From Marinitoga hydrogenitolerans DSM 16785 (GTDB lineage Bacteria > Thermotogota > Thermotogae > Petrotogales > Petrotogaceae): a stretch of 54,344 nucleotides of DNA. Location of the stretch: the NCBI RefSeq assembly GCF_900129175.1, contig NZ_FQUI01000011.1:1-54344 (forward strand), read 5' to 3'. A program made the position numbers and the translations under genes. Below the pieces are notes generated by a model. It did not search any database. It saw only the letters and a list, made by a program, of their open reading frames with translations, and had not been told where the DNA came from. Positions 14,914 to 22,134 of the stretch are shown in pieces (the first letter of the stretch is position 1; each line of letters opens with the position of its first letter).

Positions 14914-15041
14914 AACATTTTTTTCGTGGTTTTTGTGGAGTATAATCATATTTTTTCATTATAAAAATTGAATTTATTCCAGAAATATGTTATTATTATA
15001 TATGATATAAGGAATAAAGTCAAAACAATGGGGTGATTTAT

Positions 15042-16250
15042 TTGGAATTTTTAATAAAATTATCAAGAAAGAAAGTAGAAAACATTAATATAATAACTAA
15101 AAGATACTTATATGATAAAATAGATATCAACAATAGATTAATAGGAATATTAGGCGCTAGGGGTACTGGAAAAACGACTCTTATGTTACAATTAATTAAA
15201 GAAAAGTATGATTTGTCAGAAACTATATATATGAGTTTAGATCATATATTCTTTTTAGAAAATAATTTAATTAATGTTATTGAAAGTCTTTATACACGGT
15301 ATGGAATAAAAAATTTTTTTTTAGATGAAATACATAAGTATAAAAATTGGGAACAGGAAATCAAAAATATCTATGACTTTTACGATGATATTAAAATTAT
15401 TTTTTCCGGCAGTTCAAGTATTAATATTAAACAAGCTAAATATGATCTTTCAAGAAGATGTGTTACATATATTCTAAATGGATTATCTTTTAGAGAATTT
15501 TTAAATATTAAATATGGTGAAAAGTATAAACCTTACGACTTTCAGGAATTAATAGAGAATTATCGAGATATAGCCTTTAATATAGCCGAAAATAGTAAAA
15601 TCCTTCTGGATTTTCAGGAATATTACAAGTATGGATATTATCCTATATATTTTGAAAATAATAAATCTATAATTTCTAAAATAATAAATATGTATGAAAA
15701 AGTTATATATGAGGATATTGTTGAAGTGGCAAACTTAAATACTGAAAATCTAATTGTTTTAAAAAAACTTATATATTTCATTGCAACTATGCAGCCTGGG
15801 AAAATTAATATAAACAATTTGAGTAAAAACTTAAAAAAAGATAATAAAACTATTATTCATTTTGTTTCAAAATTAGAAGATGCGGGATTGTTAAATCTAT
15901 TACCAAAAAAAGGAGTAGGTGGAACTTTAGTAAGAAGCCCCGAAAAGATATATATAGAAAATGGAACGCTATATAATGCGATAAATGAAGAAATTAGAAA
16001 TAATCTTAATATAGGAAATTTAAGAGAGATTATTTTCATTAACCAAATTAAAAATAGCAATCAGAATATAAGATATAGTAAAGAAATAGGAGATTTTAAA
16101 GTTAATGGTTATTATTTTGAAGTCGGAGGAAAAAACAAAGGAAAAAAACAGATAAAAGATAAAATAGAAATTTCTTTTATTATAAAGGATGATATATTAT
16201 ATGGAGAAAAAGGAATAATTCCGTTATATCTTTTTGGGTTTCTATATTAA
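15042..16250 (+). CDS. AAA ATPase with C-terminal DUF4143-type domain
   Basis: A 402-residue ATPase of the type common in prokaryotic accessory regions. Walker A is GARGTGKTT, Walker B is FFLDEIHKY and sensor 1 is IIFSGSSS, all in the first 150 residues. A winged-helix-like middle and a C-terminal region (FEVGGKNKGKKQIKD) resembling a degenerate PD-(D/E)XK fold of DUF4143 follow. The function of the family is not established. GGGGTGAT lies best before a TTG at 15042; a GTG nine bases upstream overlaps that site. The gene looks intact but stands among gene remnants and has no partner. Confidence 0.75.
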   Translation: MEFLIKLSRKKVENINIITKRYLYDKIDINNRLIGILGARGTGKTTLMLQLIKEKYDLSETIYMSLDHIFFLENNLINVIESLYTRYGIKNFFLDEIHKYKNWEQEIKNIYDFYDDIKIIFSGSSSINIKQAKYDLSRRCVTYILNGLSFREFLNIKYGEKYKPYDFQELIENYRDIAFNIAENSKILLDFQEYYKYGYYPIYFENNKSIISKIINMYEKVIYEDIVEVANLNTENLIVLKKLIYFIATMQPGKININNLSKNLKKDNKTIIHFVSKLEDAGLLNLLPKKGVGGTLVRSPEKIYIENGTLYNAINEEIRNNLNIGNLREIIFINQIKNSNQNIRYSKEIGDFKVNGYYFEVGGKNKGKKQIKDKIEISFIIKDDILYGEKGIIPLYLFGFLY

Positions 16251-17126: not shown

Positions 17127-17312
17127 AGTTTTTTCCAAAAAGCTTCAAGTAATTTCAGAAAGAACCACCGTTCACTTGACGCAATATCTCAAATAAAAGA
17201 AAAGAAGTATTATGAAAAATACATAGATAATGCAAATGAAATCTATTTAATAGGAGTAAATATCAATTCTGAAAAAAGAAATATTGATGATTATATAATT
17301 GAAAAAATATGA
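17127..17312 (+). pseudogene. C-terminal remnant of an AAA-ATPase-like / PD-(D/E)XK protein
   Basis: An open stretch without a start codon ends at TGA 17310-17312. It carries SLDAISQIKEKKYYEKYI and IYLIGVNINSEKRNIDDYII, the typical tail of proteins with an N-terminal AAA-ATPase-like domain and C-terminal DUF1703 nuclease-like domain. The ATPase part and most of the nuclease part are missing. Its own terminator follows. Confidence 0.6.
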
Positions 17313-17471: not shown

Positions 17472-17500
17472 TTGACAACATTGAATTTTTTTGATATAAT
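17472..17500 (+). promoter_or_regulatory. Full-consensus sigma-70 promoter of the micro-gene/MFS operon
   Basis: TTGACA (17472-17477) and TATAAT (17495-17500) are separated by exactly 17 bases. This is among the best vegetative promoters in the window and implies strong transcription unless repressed. Confidence 0.85.
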
Positions 17501-17511
17501 ATATTTGAAAA

Positions 17512-17528
17512 TTAAAGTTATACTTTAA
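17512..17528 (+). promoter_or_regulatory. Palindrome at the transcription start (putative operator)
   Basis: TTAAAGT-TAT-ACTTTAA is a perfect 7+3+7 inverted repeat that begins about 5 bases after the predicted start point. A repressor bound here would block the promoter. No regulator gene is adjacent. A small mRNA hairpin is the other reading. Confidence 0.45.
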
Positions 17529-17576
17529 AATTTTTAAAAAGTAGAACAAGAATAAAAATTTTTCGGGGGTGATTAT

Positions 17577-17681
17577 ATGAAATTTAAAAAAACAAAAAAA
17601 ACAAAATCGTATTATGAAGGATTTAATGAAATGGTGAATTTAGAAAAAGTTTTAATTGAAATGAAAAGATATCAATTTTAG
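17577..17681 (+). CDS. Micro-protein 1 (34 aa), paralogue of the next gene
   Basis: An ATG preceded by GGGGGTGAT opens a 34-codon gene. The Lys/Thr-rich start (MKFKKTKKTK) is followed by SYYEGFNEMVNLEKVLIEMK and RYQF. The following gene encodes the same pattern, and the two are about 85% identical over the last 78 bases by hand count. No signal peptide, Gly-Gly leader or known domain is recognised. It is the first gene after a consensus promoter and is followed by an MFS exporter. It could be a peptide product, a leader peptide controlling the exporter, or a small regulator. The coding call rests on the ribosome site, the duplicate and conserved protein-level similarity. Confidence 0.65.
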   Translation: MKFKKTKKTKSYYEGFNEMVNLEKVLIEMKRYQF

Positions 17682-17692
17682 GAGGTGAATTT

Positions 17693-17812
17693 ATGTTTGA
17701 AAAGAGAGAATTGAAGAATAGAAAAAGAAAAATGAAATCATATTATGAAGGATTTGAAGAAATGGAGAATTTAAAAGAAATATTAATTGAATTAAAAAGA
17801 TGTCAATTTTAA
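17693..17812 (+). CDS. Micro-protein 2 (39 aa), paralogue of the previous gene
   Basis: An ATG preceded by GGAGGTGAATTT opens a 39-codon gene, 11 bases after the first. The basic start MFEKRELKNRKRKMK leads into SYYEGFEEMENLKEILIELK and RCQF. Compared with the first copy, the shared core is KSYYEGF-x-EM-x-NL-x-x-x-LIE-x-KR-x-QF; the penultimate variable residue is Cys here and Tyr there. The core looks like one amphipathic helix. The MFS gene starts 14 bases later with its own ribosome site. Function unknown. Confidence 0.65.
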   Translation: MFEKRELKNRKRKMKSYYEGFEEMENLKEILIELKRCQF

Positions 17813-17826
17813 GGATGTGATTATTT

Positions 17827-19089
17827 ATGAATAAAATACAAAAAAGAAATTTTTTACTTTATGTTGTTGGAAGAATGGTATCCTTAGTTGGTAGTGGTAT
17901 TCAAATGGTAGCAATGCCTTTATTTATATTGGATTTAACAGGTTCTGGAACTAAAATGGGATTATTTGCAATGATAAGCATGATACCAGCTTTAATAATT
18001 GCCCCATTTGCCGGAGTACTTGGCGATAGATATAACAGAAAAAATATTATGGTTTCAATGGATTATGTCAGGGGAATAATTATATTATTTCTTGCATATA
18101 TGACATATATTGGAAAAATAAATTTAATTGTATTATTTATCACGCAGGTTTTAATATCTATTCTTGATAGTTTTTTTGGAGCGGCTACAAGCGCAATGCT
18201 TCCTGACCTTGTTTCTAAATCAGATTTAATGAAAGCTAATTCTGTAACAGAAAGTATTAGTAGTGCTTCAATGATAATGGGTCCTGTTTTAGGCGGGGTT
18301 ATTTATGGTCTTTTTGGAATGCAATGGGTTTTTATTTTAAATGGGATTTCTTTTATATTATCAGCATTTAGTGAAATGTTCATAAAATATAGGAAAACAA
18401 GCACTTTAACTGCAGAAATAAATGCAAAAATAATATTTAATGATATTAAAGAATCAATAAGCTATATTTTCAATAATTATGTTTTAAAAAATTTAATTCT
18501 TATGGCAATTTTTTTGAATTTATTGTTTAATCCAATGTTTGCTGTATTGTTCCCTTATACATTTAGAGAAGTGATAGGATTCTCACCCCAACAATATGGG
18601 CTTCTTGAAATGATGTGGACTCTGGGTATTTTAGTAGGTAATATATTACTGGCAGTATTTTTTTCAAAAAGAGAAAGCAAAAAATTATTTAGAAATGGAA
18701 TTTATGGTATGGTATTTTTAAATTTACTAATAGCCGTGGTTTTGATTCCACAGATTTTAAGTAAATTTAATGGTATATGGAGTATATTTTTCGTGGTTGG
18801 TGCGTTGCTAATGTTAATGGGTATAACAAATGCTTTTGTAAATACACCTATAAGTGTATATTTTCAACGAATTATACCTAATGAAAACAGATCAAAAATA
18901 TTTTCAGCATTAGGGGTAATATTTCAAGCTGCAACGCCACTTGGAATGCTTGTGATTGGAATACTTGTAGATAGAGTTGAAGTGCATTGGATATTTTTAG
19001 CTATAAGTTTGTTGATAATACTGGATGTTATAGTTTTTTCTAAAAAAATAGAGCAAATGGATTTTACTCCTTCCCTTGAAACAGAATAA
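17827..19089 (+). CDS. MFS exporter (MFS_3 / macrolide- or siderophore-efflux type)
   Basis: A 420-residue, 12-helix major facilitator. The first loop motif GVLGDRYNRKNIMV matches the motif-A type signature of drug/proton exporters, and the N-terminus KIQKRNFLLYVVGRMVSLVG is typical of the MFS_3 group that includes MefA- and EntS-like exporters. The cargo is unknown. AAGGATGTGAT precedes the ATG. It is the third gene of the operon after two micro-genes, so it may export them, a drug, or an unrelated metabolite. Confidence 0.85.
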   Translation: MNKIQKRNFLLYVVGRMVSLVGSGIQMVAMPLFILDLTGSGTKMGLFAMISMIPALIIAPFAGVLGDRYNRKNIMVSMDYVRGIIILFLAYMTYIGKINLIVLFITQVLISILDSFFGAATSAMLPDLVSKSDLMKANSVTESISSASMIMGPVLGGVIYGLFGMQWVFILNGISFILSAFSEMFIKYRKTSTLTAEINAKIIFNDIKESISYIFNNYVLKNLILMAIFLNLLFNPMFAVLFPYTFREVIGFSPQQYGLLEMMWTLGILVGNILLAVFFSKRESKKLFRNGIYGMVFLNLLIAVVLIPQILSKFNGIWSIFFVVGALLMLMGITNAFVNTPISVYFQRIIPNENRSKIFSALGVIFQAATPLGMLVIGILVDRVEVHWIFLAISLLIILDVIVFSKKIEQMDFTPSLETE

Positions 19090-19176: not shown

Positions 19177-19350
19177 ATGAAAATTACAAAACAAGAGGAA
19201 ATAAGACCTATATGTCCTTATTGTGAAAAAGAGTTAGATGAAATTTATGTTAAAACAAAGGGAGTAGGGCTTATAACAGGAAAAAATGCAATATATTTTT
19301 GCCCTCATTGTCATAAAATTTTGGGTGTGGGTCAAAGTAGGATGGCATAA
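19177..19350 (+). CDS. Zinc-ribbon micro-protein (57 aa)
   Basis: A 57-codon gene with AAGGAGG before its ATG. It carries two CxxC knuckles, CPYC (13-16) and CPHC (42-45), separated by a beta-rich stretch KTKGVGLITGKNAIYF, the layout of a rubredoxin-like zinc ribbon. No specific family is recognised. TATAAT at 19138-19143 is a likely promoter. It stands alone, convergent with thrS. The role is unknown; small zinc ribbons often bind nucleic acid or proteins. Confidence 0.75.
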   Translation: MKITKQEEIRPICPYCEKELDEIYVKTKGVGLITGKNAIYFCPHCHKILGVGQSRMA

Positions 19351-21336: not shown

Positions 21337-22134
21337 TTATTTTTTTGCAATACATGCAATTTCAACATCTACTCCTTTAGGAAGTTTTGAAACTTCAACA
21401 ACATATCTTGAAGGATAAGGTTTTTTAAAATATGTTTCATAAATAGCGTTAAATTCACCGAATTTAGACATATCAGTTATGAAAACACTTACTTGAACAA
21501 CATCTTTAAATGTAAAGCCTGCAGCATTTAAAACATCTTTAAGATTTTCCATAGCTTGTTTTGATTGTTCTACAAAAGATTCAGGGATTTCATTCGTTTC
21601 AAAATTTATAGGGATTTGTCCTGATACATATAATTCATTGTCCTTTAAAAGAGCAGGAGAATAAGGTCCTACAGCAGAAACGCCATCAGGTGTTATCCCT
21701 TTTTTATTATTAAAAAGTTTTATATGTATTTGTGTATCAAAAAAGTCAAAATAATTTAAATTTAGAGTTCTAAATAGTTTTGAAAAGTTATTTTTATCTT
21801 CAAAATATTTAAAATAATTATTTAAAATAAAAGATAACATTAGATTATAACCTATAAAATATAAAATAAATACATATATATTCAACTTTATCAAAGAGAT
21901 AGATATTAAAAACGCCATTGATATTATTACGATACTAAAATAATGTGCGAATATTTTTAGCCCGTCTTTTTCTTTAGAAAACAAATATGTTCCAAATAAT
22001 AGGGTTAAAGTTGTTAGAGTAAAGAAAAAAAGGAAAAATCCATTAACTCTTGAAGCAGATATTACTGATGAAAATCCTGTAATAACAGTTAACATCCATG
22101 AAAGTTTGTAAAATATATCGAGATAAATCTTCAT
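21337..22134 (-). CDS. Membrane-domain / RidA (YjgF) fusion protein
   Basis: A single 265-residue frame joins two parts. Residues about 11-106 form four hydrophobic helices. Residues about 147-265 are a complete RidA/YjgF domain, with AVGPYSPALL, LYVSGQIPI, NLKDVLNAAG, DVVQVSVFITDM, YPSRYVVEVS and LPKGVDVEIACIAKK. The catalytic Arg of RidA is present (Arg243), so imine/enamine deaminase activity is plausible. RidA is normally a soluble trimer of about 125 residues. No stop, frameshift or internal start with a ribosome site separates the halves. With four helices and a Lys-rich loop after helix 2, the RidA part should face the cytoplasm (inferred). Confidence 0.8.
   Translation of the reverse strand: MKIYLDIFYKLSWMLTVITGFSSVISASRVNGFFLFFFTLTTLTLLFGTYLFSKEKDGLKIFAHYFSIVIISMAFLISISLIKLNIYVFILYFIGYNLMLSFILNNYFKYFEDKNNFSKLFRTLNLNYFDFFDTQIHIKLFNNKKGITPDGVSAVGPYSPALLKDNELYVSGQIPINFETNEIPESFVEQSKQAMENLKDVLNAAGFTFKDVVQVSVFITDMSKFGEFNAIYETYFKKPYPSRYVVEVSKLPKGVDVEIACIAKK

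Follow-up and report, generated by a model that had tools for sequence, protein, structure and literature searches.

Small open reading frames (ORFs) associated with drug exporters have been described in several bacteria. In Bacillus subtilis, the small ORF BmrB lies directly upstream of the heterodimeric multidrug ABC exporter BmrC/BmrD, carries the terminator within its coding sequence and serves as the leader in ribosome-mediated attenuation (PMC4191407). The mef(E)/mel operon combines a consensus-type promoter with a leader peptide that spans 8 codons within a 327-nt structured region (PMC4335068). In Methylomonas, the homologous smORFs WatS1-WatS5, of about 50 amino acids and with a predicted transmembrane domain, are functionally tied to the RND pump WatABO in a stress response (PMC10355033). 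The tiny trp attenuator leader peTrpL of Sinorhizobium meliloti acts in trans with RNA in the regulation of multidrug efflux after exposure to antibiotics (PMC7298713).

The locus compared here with these systems is part of a 54,344-nucleotide stretch of the Marinitoga hydrogenitolerans DSM 16785 genome (contig NZ_FQUI01000011.1), which is referred to as the window. It is a tight operon on the forward strand, in which a promoter is followed by two paralogous micro-ORFs and an MFS exporter. The sequence-only reading of this DNA had described a perfect sigma-70 promoter, and the element TTGACA-17-TATAAT at 17472-17500 indeed matches the consensus at 12 of 12 positions, carries the TG of an extended promoter before its -10 element and has the top score of the region. 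Micro-ORFs of 34 and 39 codons and the MFS gene follow, as had been reported. Micro-gene 1 (ORF1, 34 amino acids, MKFKKTKKTKSYYEGFNEMVNLEKVLIEMKRYQF) occupies 17577-17681 behind the ribosome site GGGGGTGA at 17565-17572. Micro-gene 2 (ORF2, 39 amino acids, MFEKRELKNRKRKMKSYYEGFEEMENLKEILIELKRCQF) occupies 17693-17812, and its ribosome site AGGAGGTG (17680-17687) overlaps the stop codon of micro-gene 1. The ribosome site AAGGATG at 17811-17817 in turn touches the stop codon of micro-gene 2 and serves the MFS gene at 17827-19089.

A palindrome near the start site had also been pointed out. It is present at 17512-17528 as TTAAAGT-TAT-ACTTTAA, read from the sequence, but resembles the AT background and was given no weight, because AT-rich palindromes of similar quality are found upstream of most family members. 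Motifs such as TTAAANNTNTTNAA occurred upstream of 7 of 26 members compared with 3 of 62 controls; since the member regions are also more AT-rich than the controls (82% versus 73%), a shared operator is not claimed. The leader of approximately 70 nt is unstructured. No attenuator was found in the window, the transcript start folding less than its shuffled versions (z=+2.1), and no terminator-like site was detected on the forward strand between 17500 and 17830, hence none between the genes. A search of Rfam gave no match at the window locus and nothing relevant at the related loci.

The MFS exporter of 420 amino acids is, judged by its profile matches, 2A0121/Mef-like. Its full-length match to TIGR00900 (2A0121; E 6e-83) reached 279.2 bits and missed the curated cut-off of 319.6, which places it as a relative of that family and not as a certified member. 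It also matched MFS_1 (E 4e-41), NorA in the PDB (E 8e-5) and, far below the cut-off of that model, Mef(A) (NF000245, E 1e-29), which is a point of likeness to mef(E)/mel. A RiPP reading was rejected, as the 'Ryptide export' model matched weakly (52 bits versus 575).

Several neighbours of the operon were also noticed. Just upstream, at 17140-17310, lies a degenerate remnant ending in EIYLIGVNINSEKRNIDDYIIEKI that appears by eye typical of PDDEXK-type AAA proteins, and relatives lack in this interval the intact AAA ATPase found at 15033-16250. A protein of 57 amino acids with two CxxC pairs, encoded at 19177-19350 between MFS exporter and thrS, resembles a zinc ribbon and gave sub-threshold family matches only. 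On the reverse strand, at 21337-22134, what appears by eye to be a RidA-like domain is fused to an N-terminal membrane region, and this gene is kept in relatives.

That the duplicated unit had stayed open at the protein level was borne out by comparison of the copies. ORF1 and ORF2 share the core KSYYEGF..EM.NL..(V/I)LIE.KR.QF with 12 mismatches in 78 bases (66/78 identical), and their protein alignment scored 104, the maximum in 20,000 shuffles being 62. In pairwise comparisons of ten Marinitoga copies, differences at codon positions 1, 2 and 3 numbered 265, 94 and 422 (permutation p=0.0002), and 52% of the single-base codon differences were synonymous compared with 13% expected. ORF2 and its closest relative gave a dN/dS of about 0.17; ORF1 of the window differs from its counterpart L026 at 5 positions only, too few for dN/dS. 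Copies at loci without an exporter yielded 0.08 for the pair L104/L108 and about 0.2 or lower in the remaining comparisons. The check by dN/dS and codon bias that had been proposed thus points to real coding genes, in which substitutions follow the codon structure.

Iterated profile searches in the Thermotogota recovered the microprotein family in 21 of 21 Petrotogaceae genomes and no credible member in the 82 other Thermotogota genomes, where the best match had an E value of 0.01. Members are 31-41 amino acids long and are encoded singly or as two to three tandem micro-ORFs (tandem at L026, L034, L035, L066, L070, L110 and L161); some divergent ORFs (L163) were counted as family by size and position only. 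A promoter scoring at least 10 of 12 precedes 22 of 26 tested members compared with 9% of shuffles, and strong ribosome sites are usual. The genus profile, to which divergent members are invisible, was also run against 84,980 genomes and matched Marinitoga lauensis alone (NZ_QHLX01000001.1). In this species, the MFS-linked micro-ORF (L027/L036) is open, but the ATG that follows its ribosome site lies in another frame, suggestive of an indel, either real or from the long-read assembly. The out-of-frame copy was included in profiles A2 and A3, applied in the large scan and in some profile searches; the final tally and the models rest on A4-A6, which leave it out. Searches of plasmids, phages and viral contigs found no members. 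In the own genome, paralogue matches on C37 and C10 were taken as low-complexity chance, as were, elsewhere, matches to open frames of 722-797 amino acids, one of them a chemotaxis-receptor-like protein, put down to chance. The micro-proteins had no significant profile match in Pfam, NCBIfam, PHROGs or the PDB, in agreement with the earlier statement that no known family is recognised, and on these searches they form a new protein family specific to the Petrotogaceae lineage.

Members share a layout in which a Lys/Arg tail is followed by S-Y-Y-x-x-F/Y and a helix with a basic-hydrophobic C-terminus. The charge is +2 to +7 in the N-terminal tail and -3 to +1 in the helix part, and GRAVY values range from -0.7 to -1.4; by composition and GRAVY, no transmembrane segment was identified. 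AlphaFold placed the helix at residues 17-36 in the protein of micro-gene 2 and at 15-36 in a divergent, Petrotoga-like member of genus g6, with a pTM of about 0.36 for the helix model of the micro-protein. The prediction is thus of a flexible Lys/Arg N-tail and one C-terminal amphipathic helix. A near-invariant Ser, with Glu/Thr three residues further on, would fit a helix-capping box. Next to the stop codon the residues vary among members (KRYQF, KRFNY, KRSQI, RRI, RKL).

Drug-type exporters, either MFS or a heterodimeric ABC pair, are preceded by the micro-genes at 19 of the 31 family loci. The orthologue of the window MFS gene accounts for six Marinitoga. The ABC pair is found in three further cases in Marinitoga and in genera g5, g7 and g8, the g7 micro-ORFs being recognised only by their size and position. 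At six g6 loci, the exporter is of MFS or ABC type and lies mostly ~0.25-0.4 kb downstream, so that adjacency is observed and co-transcription putative. After collapsing orthologous contexts, adjacency was found in 4 of 15 (p=2.5e-5), with a chance adjacency of ~1.2% per gene based on ~25 MFS_1/ABC_membrane matches in the own genome and an estimated 2,100 genes. The remaining 12 loci are solo, with their own promoter and one to three micro-ORFs followed mostly by a terminator or a convergent gene. Whether the pair always precedes this MFS gene had been proposed as a test, and it does so only in part: homologues lie in front of it in six of seven Marinitoga genomes, one copy being out of frame with its ATG, but other orthologous MFS genes (G042, G052, G054, G045 and G038) have a promoter of their own and no micro-genes. 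The micro-gene has been lost from the ABC operon in both G040 and G041 and is thus dispensable there. The micro-ORFs persist in G053 despite broken ABC genes, and in g2 and g3 the micro-gene is retained in genomes that have no MFS/ABC orthologues at the thresholds used. The association with exporters is strong but facultative.

Some features of individual exporter loci were recorded in addition. The MFS gene of L030 (G041) has an internal TGA behind an intact micro-gene. In the own genome, the third paralogue is followed by an ABC exporter that is split between contigs C31 (L005) and C46; with a transposase-like sequence at the end of C31, it has apparently been interrupted by an insertion element. 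In g6, the exporter at one and the same micro-gene locus differs between species. The leaders of the g6 MFS/ABC exporters contain G-rich elements GGGTGGGNAGCGGGGCGAAGGGG, tandem in several cases, which match the G-quadruplex motif and are present nowhere else in those loci (L100-L103, L105, L129 and L130).

This leads to the question whether the micro-proteins act on the pumps themselves. As modulators in the manner of WatS1, AcrZ or SgrT, they would bind the exporter at its cytosolic face through the amphipathic helix and tune its activity or specificity. Exporter linkage recurs in several genera, and there is precedent for homologous small ORFs linked to an efflux pump (PMC10355033; PMC10710835), which is where the family resembles WatS1-WatS5, small ORFs able to tune a pump. 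Unlike WatS, however, the Petrotogaceae micro-proteins are hydrophilic, without the transmembrane segment of the WatS/AcrZ type, and are linked to MFS pumps, ABC pumps or none. The partners are unrelated to each other, and several orthologous pumps are encoded without micro-genes. Since g2 and g3 have the micro-gene but, at the thresholds used, no such pump orthologues, a pump is unlikely as a universal target, and modulation of the exporter is considered an unlikely explanation.

The ABC operons contain a separate attenuator. Upstream of the micro-genes, a leader ORF and two tandem terminators were found (L005, L029, L031, L142 and L149 in Marinitoga; L161, L163 and L160). The ribosome site of the leader ORF pairs with a segment near the leader end, the same segment pairs with the 5' arm of the terminator, and the second terminator has a related arm. 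The pairings covary between genera (GUGAUAACC/GGUUAUCAC in Marinitoga, GGAUAGCU/AGCUAUCC in G052), and such an SD/anti-SD/terminator attenuator precedes the ABC pair in four Petrotogaceae genera. In an automatic check, five of eight operons had all three parts, while G039, G041 and G045 had some of them; by exact match, G039 has the same attenuator segments as its relatives. Several ABC loci have, after the terminators, another very short ORF (such as MILKFVRWVFN or MTFKSVRWNFN). A ribosome stalled early in the leader would free the segment to break the terminator, and the attenuator should open when a drug stalls ribosomes. By analogy, the arrangement follows the principle of ribosome-mediated attenuation described for bmrBCD (PMC4191407). 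The micro-genes are situated downstream of both terminators and are therefore regulated output, not the sensor.

This arrangement bears on one of two explanations put forward earlier, that the micro-ORFs are leader peptides. As leader cistrons acting in cis, similar to BmrB or MefL or by simple coupling, they would control or boost translation of the exporter when a drug slows their own. In the window, short ORFs do head the operon of a drug exporter, the ribosome site of the next gene overlaps the stop codon, and Mef-like and BmrCD-like exporters are often under leader-peptide control (PMC4191407, PMC4335068). Yet no terminator or anti-terminator lies in or beside the window ORFs, and unlike the short peptide in the long structured region of mef(E)/mel, two conserved genes of 34-39 codons follow a short unstructured leader. 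The ABC operons have an attenuator of the general BmrB kind, but unlike BmrB itself, the micro-genes are located downstream of the terminators, and the leader position is taken by a separate ORF. A downstream gene to control is absent at the 12 solo loci, where the copies are nevertheless under purifying selection, and the stop-proximal residues vary. A leader function in cis thus appears quite improbable, although at exporter-linked loci some role in cis is conceivable.

Leaderless bacteriocin operons hold tandem paralogous cationic peptides beside exporters. The other earlier explanation, in which the peptides are exported or serve as signals and have an exporter dedicated to them, shares with such operons the tandem cationic paralogues without a leader, but is very improbable, for leaderless bacteriocins included, given that the proteins have no hydrophobic stretch, are hydrophilic with a mostly acidic helix, and are encoded next to exporters of multidrug type, before an unrelated ABC pair as well as the MFS gene, or at loci with no exporter, while MFS orthologues occur without them. 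The earlier reading was right on the genes and on their link to the exporter, but a choice restricted to its two explanations is not supported.

The reading that we favour, with a probability of roughly 0.6, is that of a microprotein that acts in trans and is expressed together with drug exporters in response to translation stress. Action in trans is suggested by the conserved solo copies, the unrelated pump partners and the separate leader, and a cytosolic location by the charge-segregated build and the lack of hydrophobic segments. Co-expression with pumps, in one context behind a sensor of ribosome stalling, argues for a role in drug or translation stress, and the drug-response connection of the micro-genes is well supported. 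The micro-proteins would be made alongside the pump and act in the cytosol as part of a response to compounds that block translation or are toxic in a similar way. In the window, the pair may be transcribed constitutively and strongly, or under a putative repressor, and the tight spacing would couple translation of the MFS gene to that of the micro-genes. At low confidence, the basic tail may bind RNA or the ribosome and the helix may dock a partner; RNA or the ribosome would be the most economical common target, a tentative assignment. The resemblance to peTrpL is in a tiny protein proposed to act in trans, possibly with RNA, and no similarity between the proteins is claimed. More speculative, and on balance doubtful, is the extension to the whole family as inducible RNA- or ribosome-binding microproteins that confer intrinsic tolerance to translation-blocking compounds and have been recruited repeatedly to head drug-exporter operons.

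As a rule, small ORFs in front of drug pumps are written off as leader peptides. The ABC operons of the Petrotogaceae part the two, with the true leader and attenuator first and then the conserved microproteins, which also occur alone. This makes a second, protein-level answer, deployed alongside efflux, directly testable.
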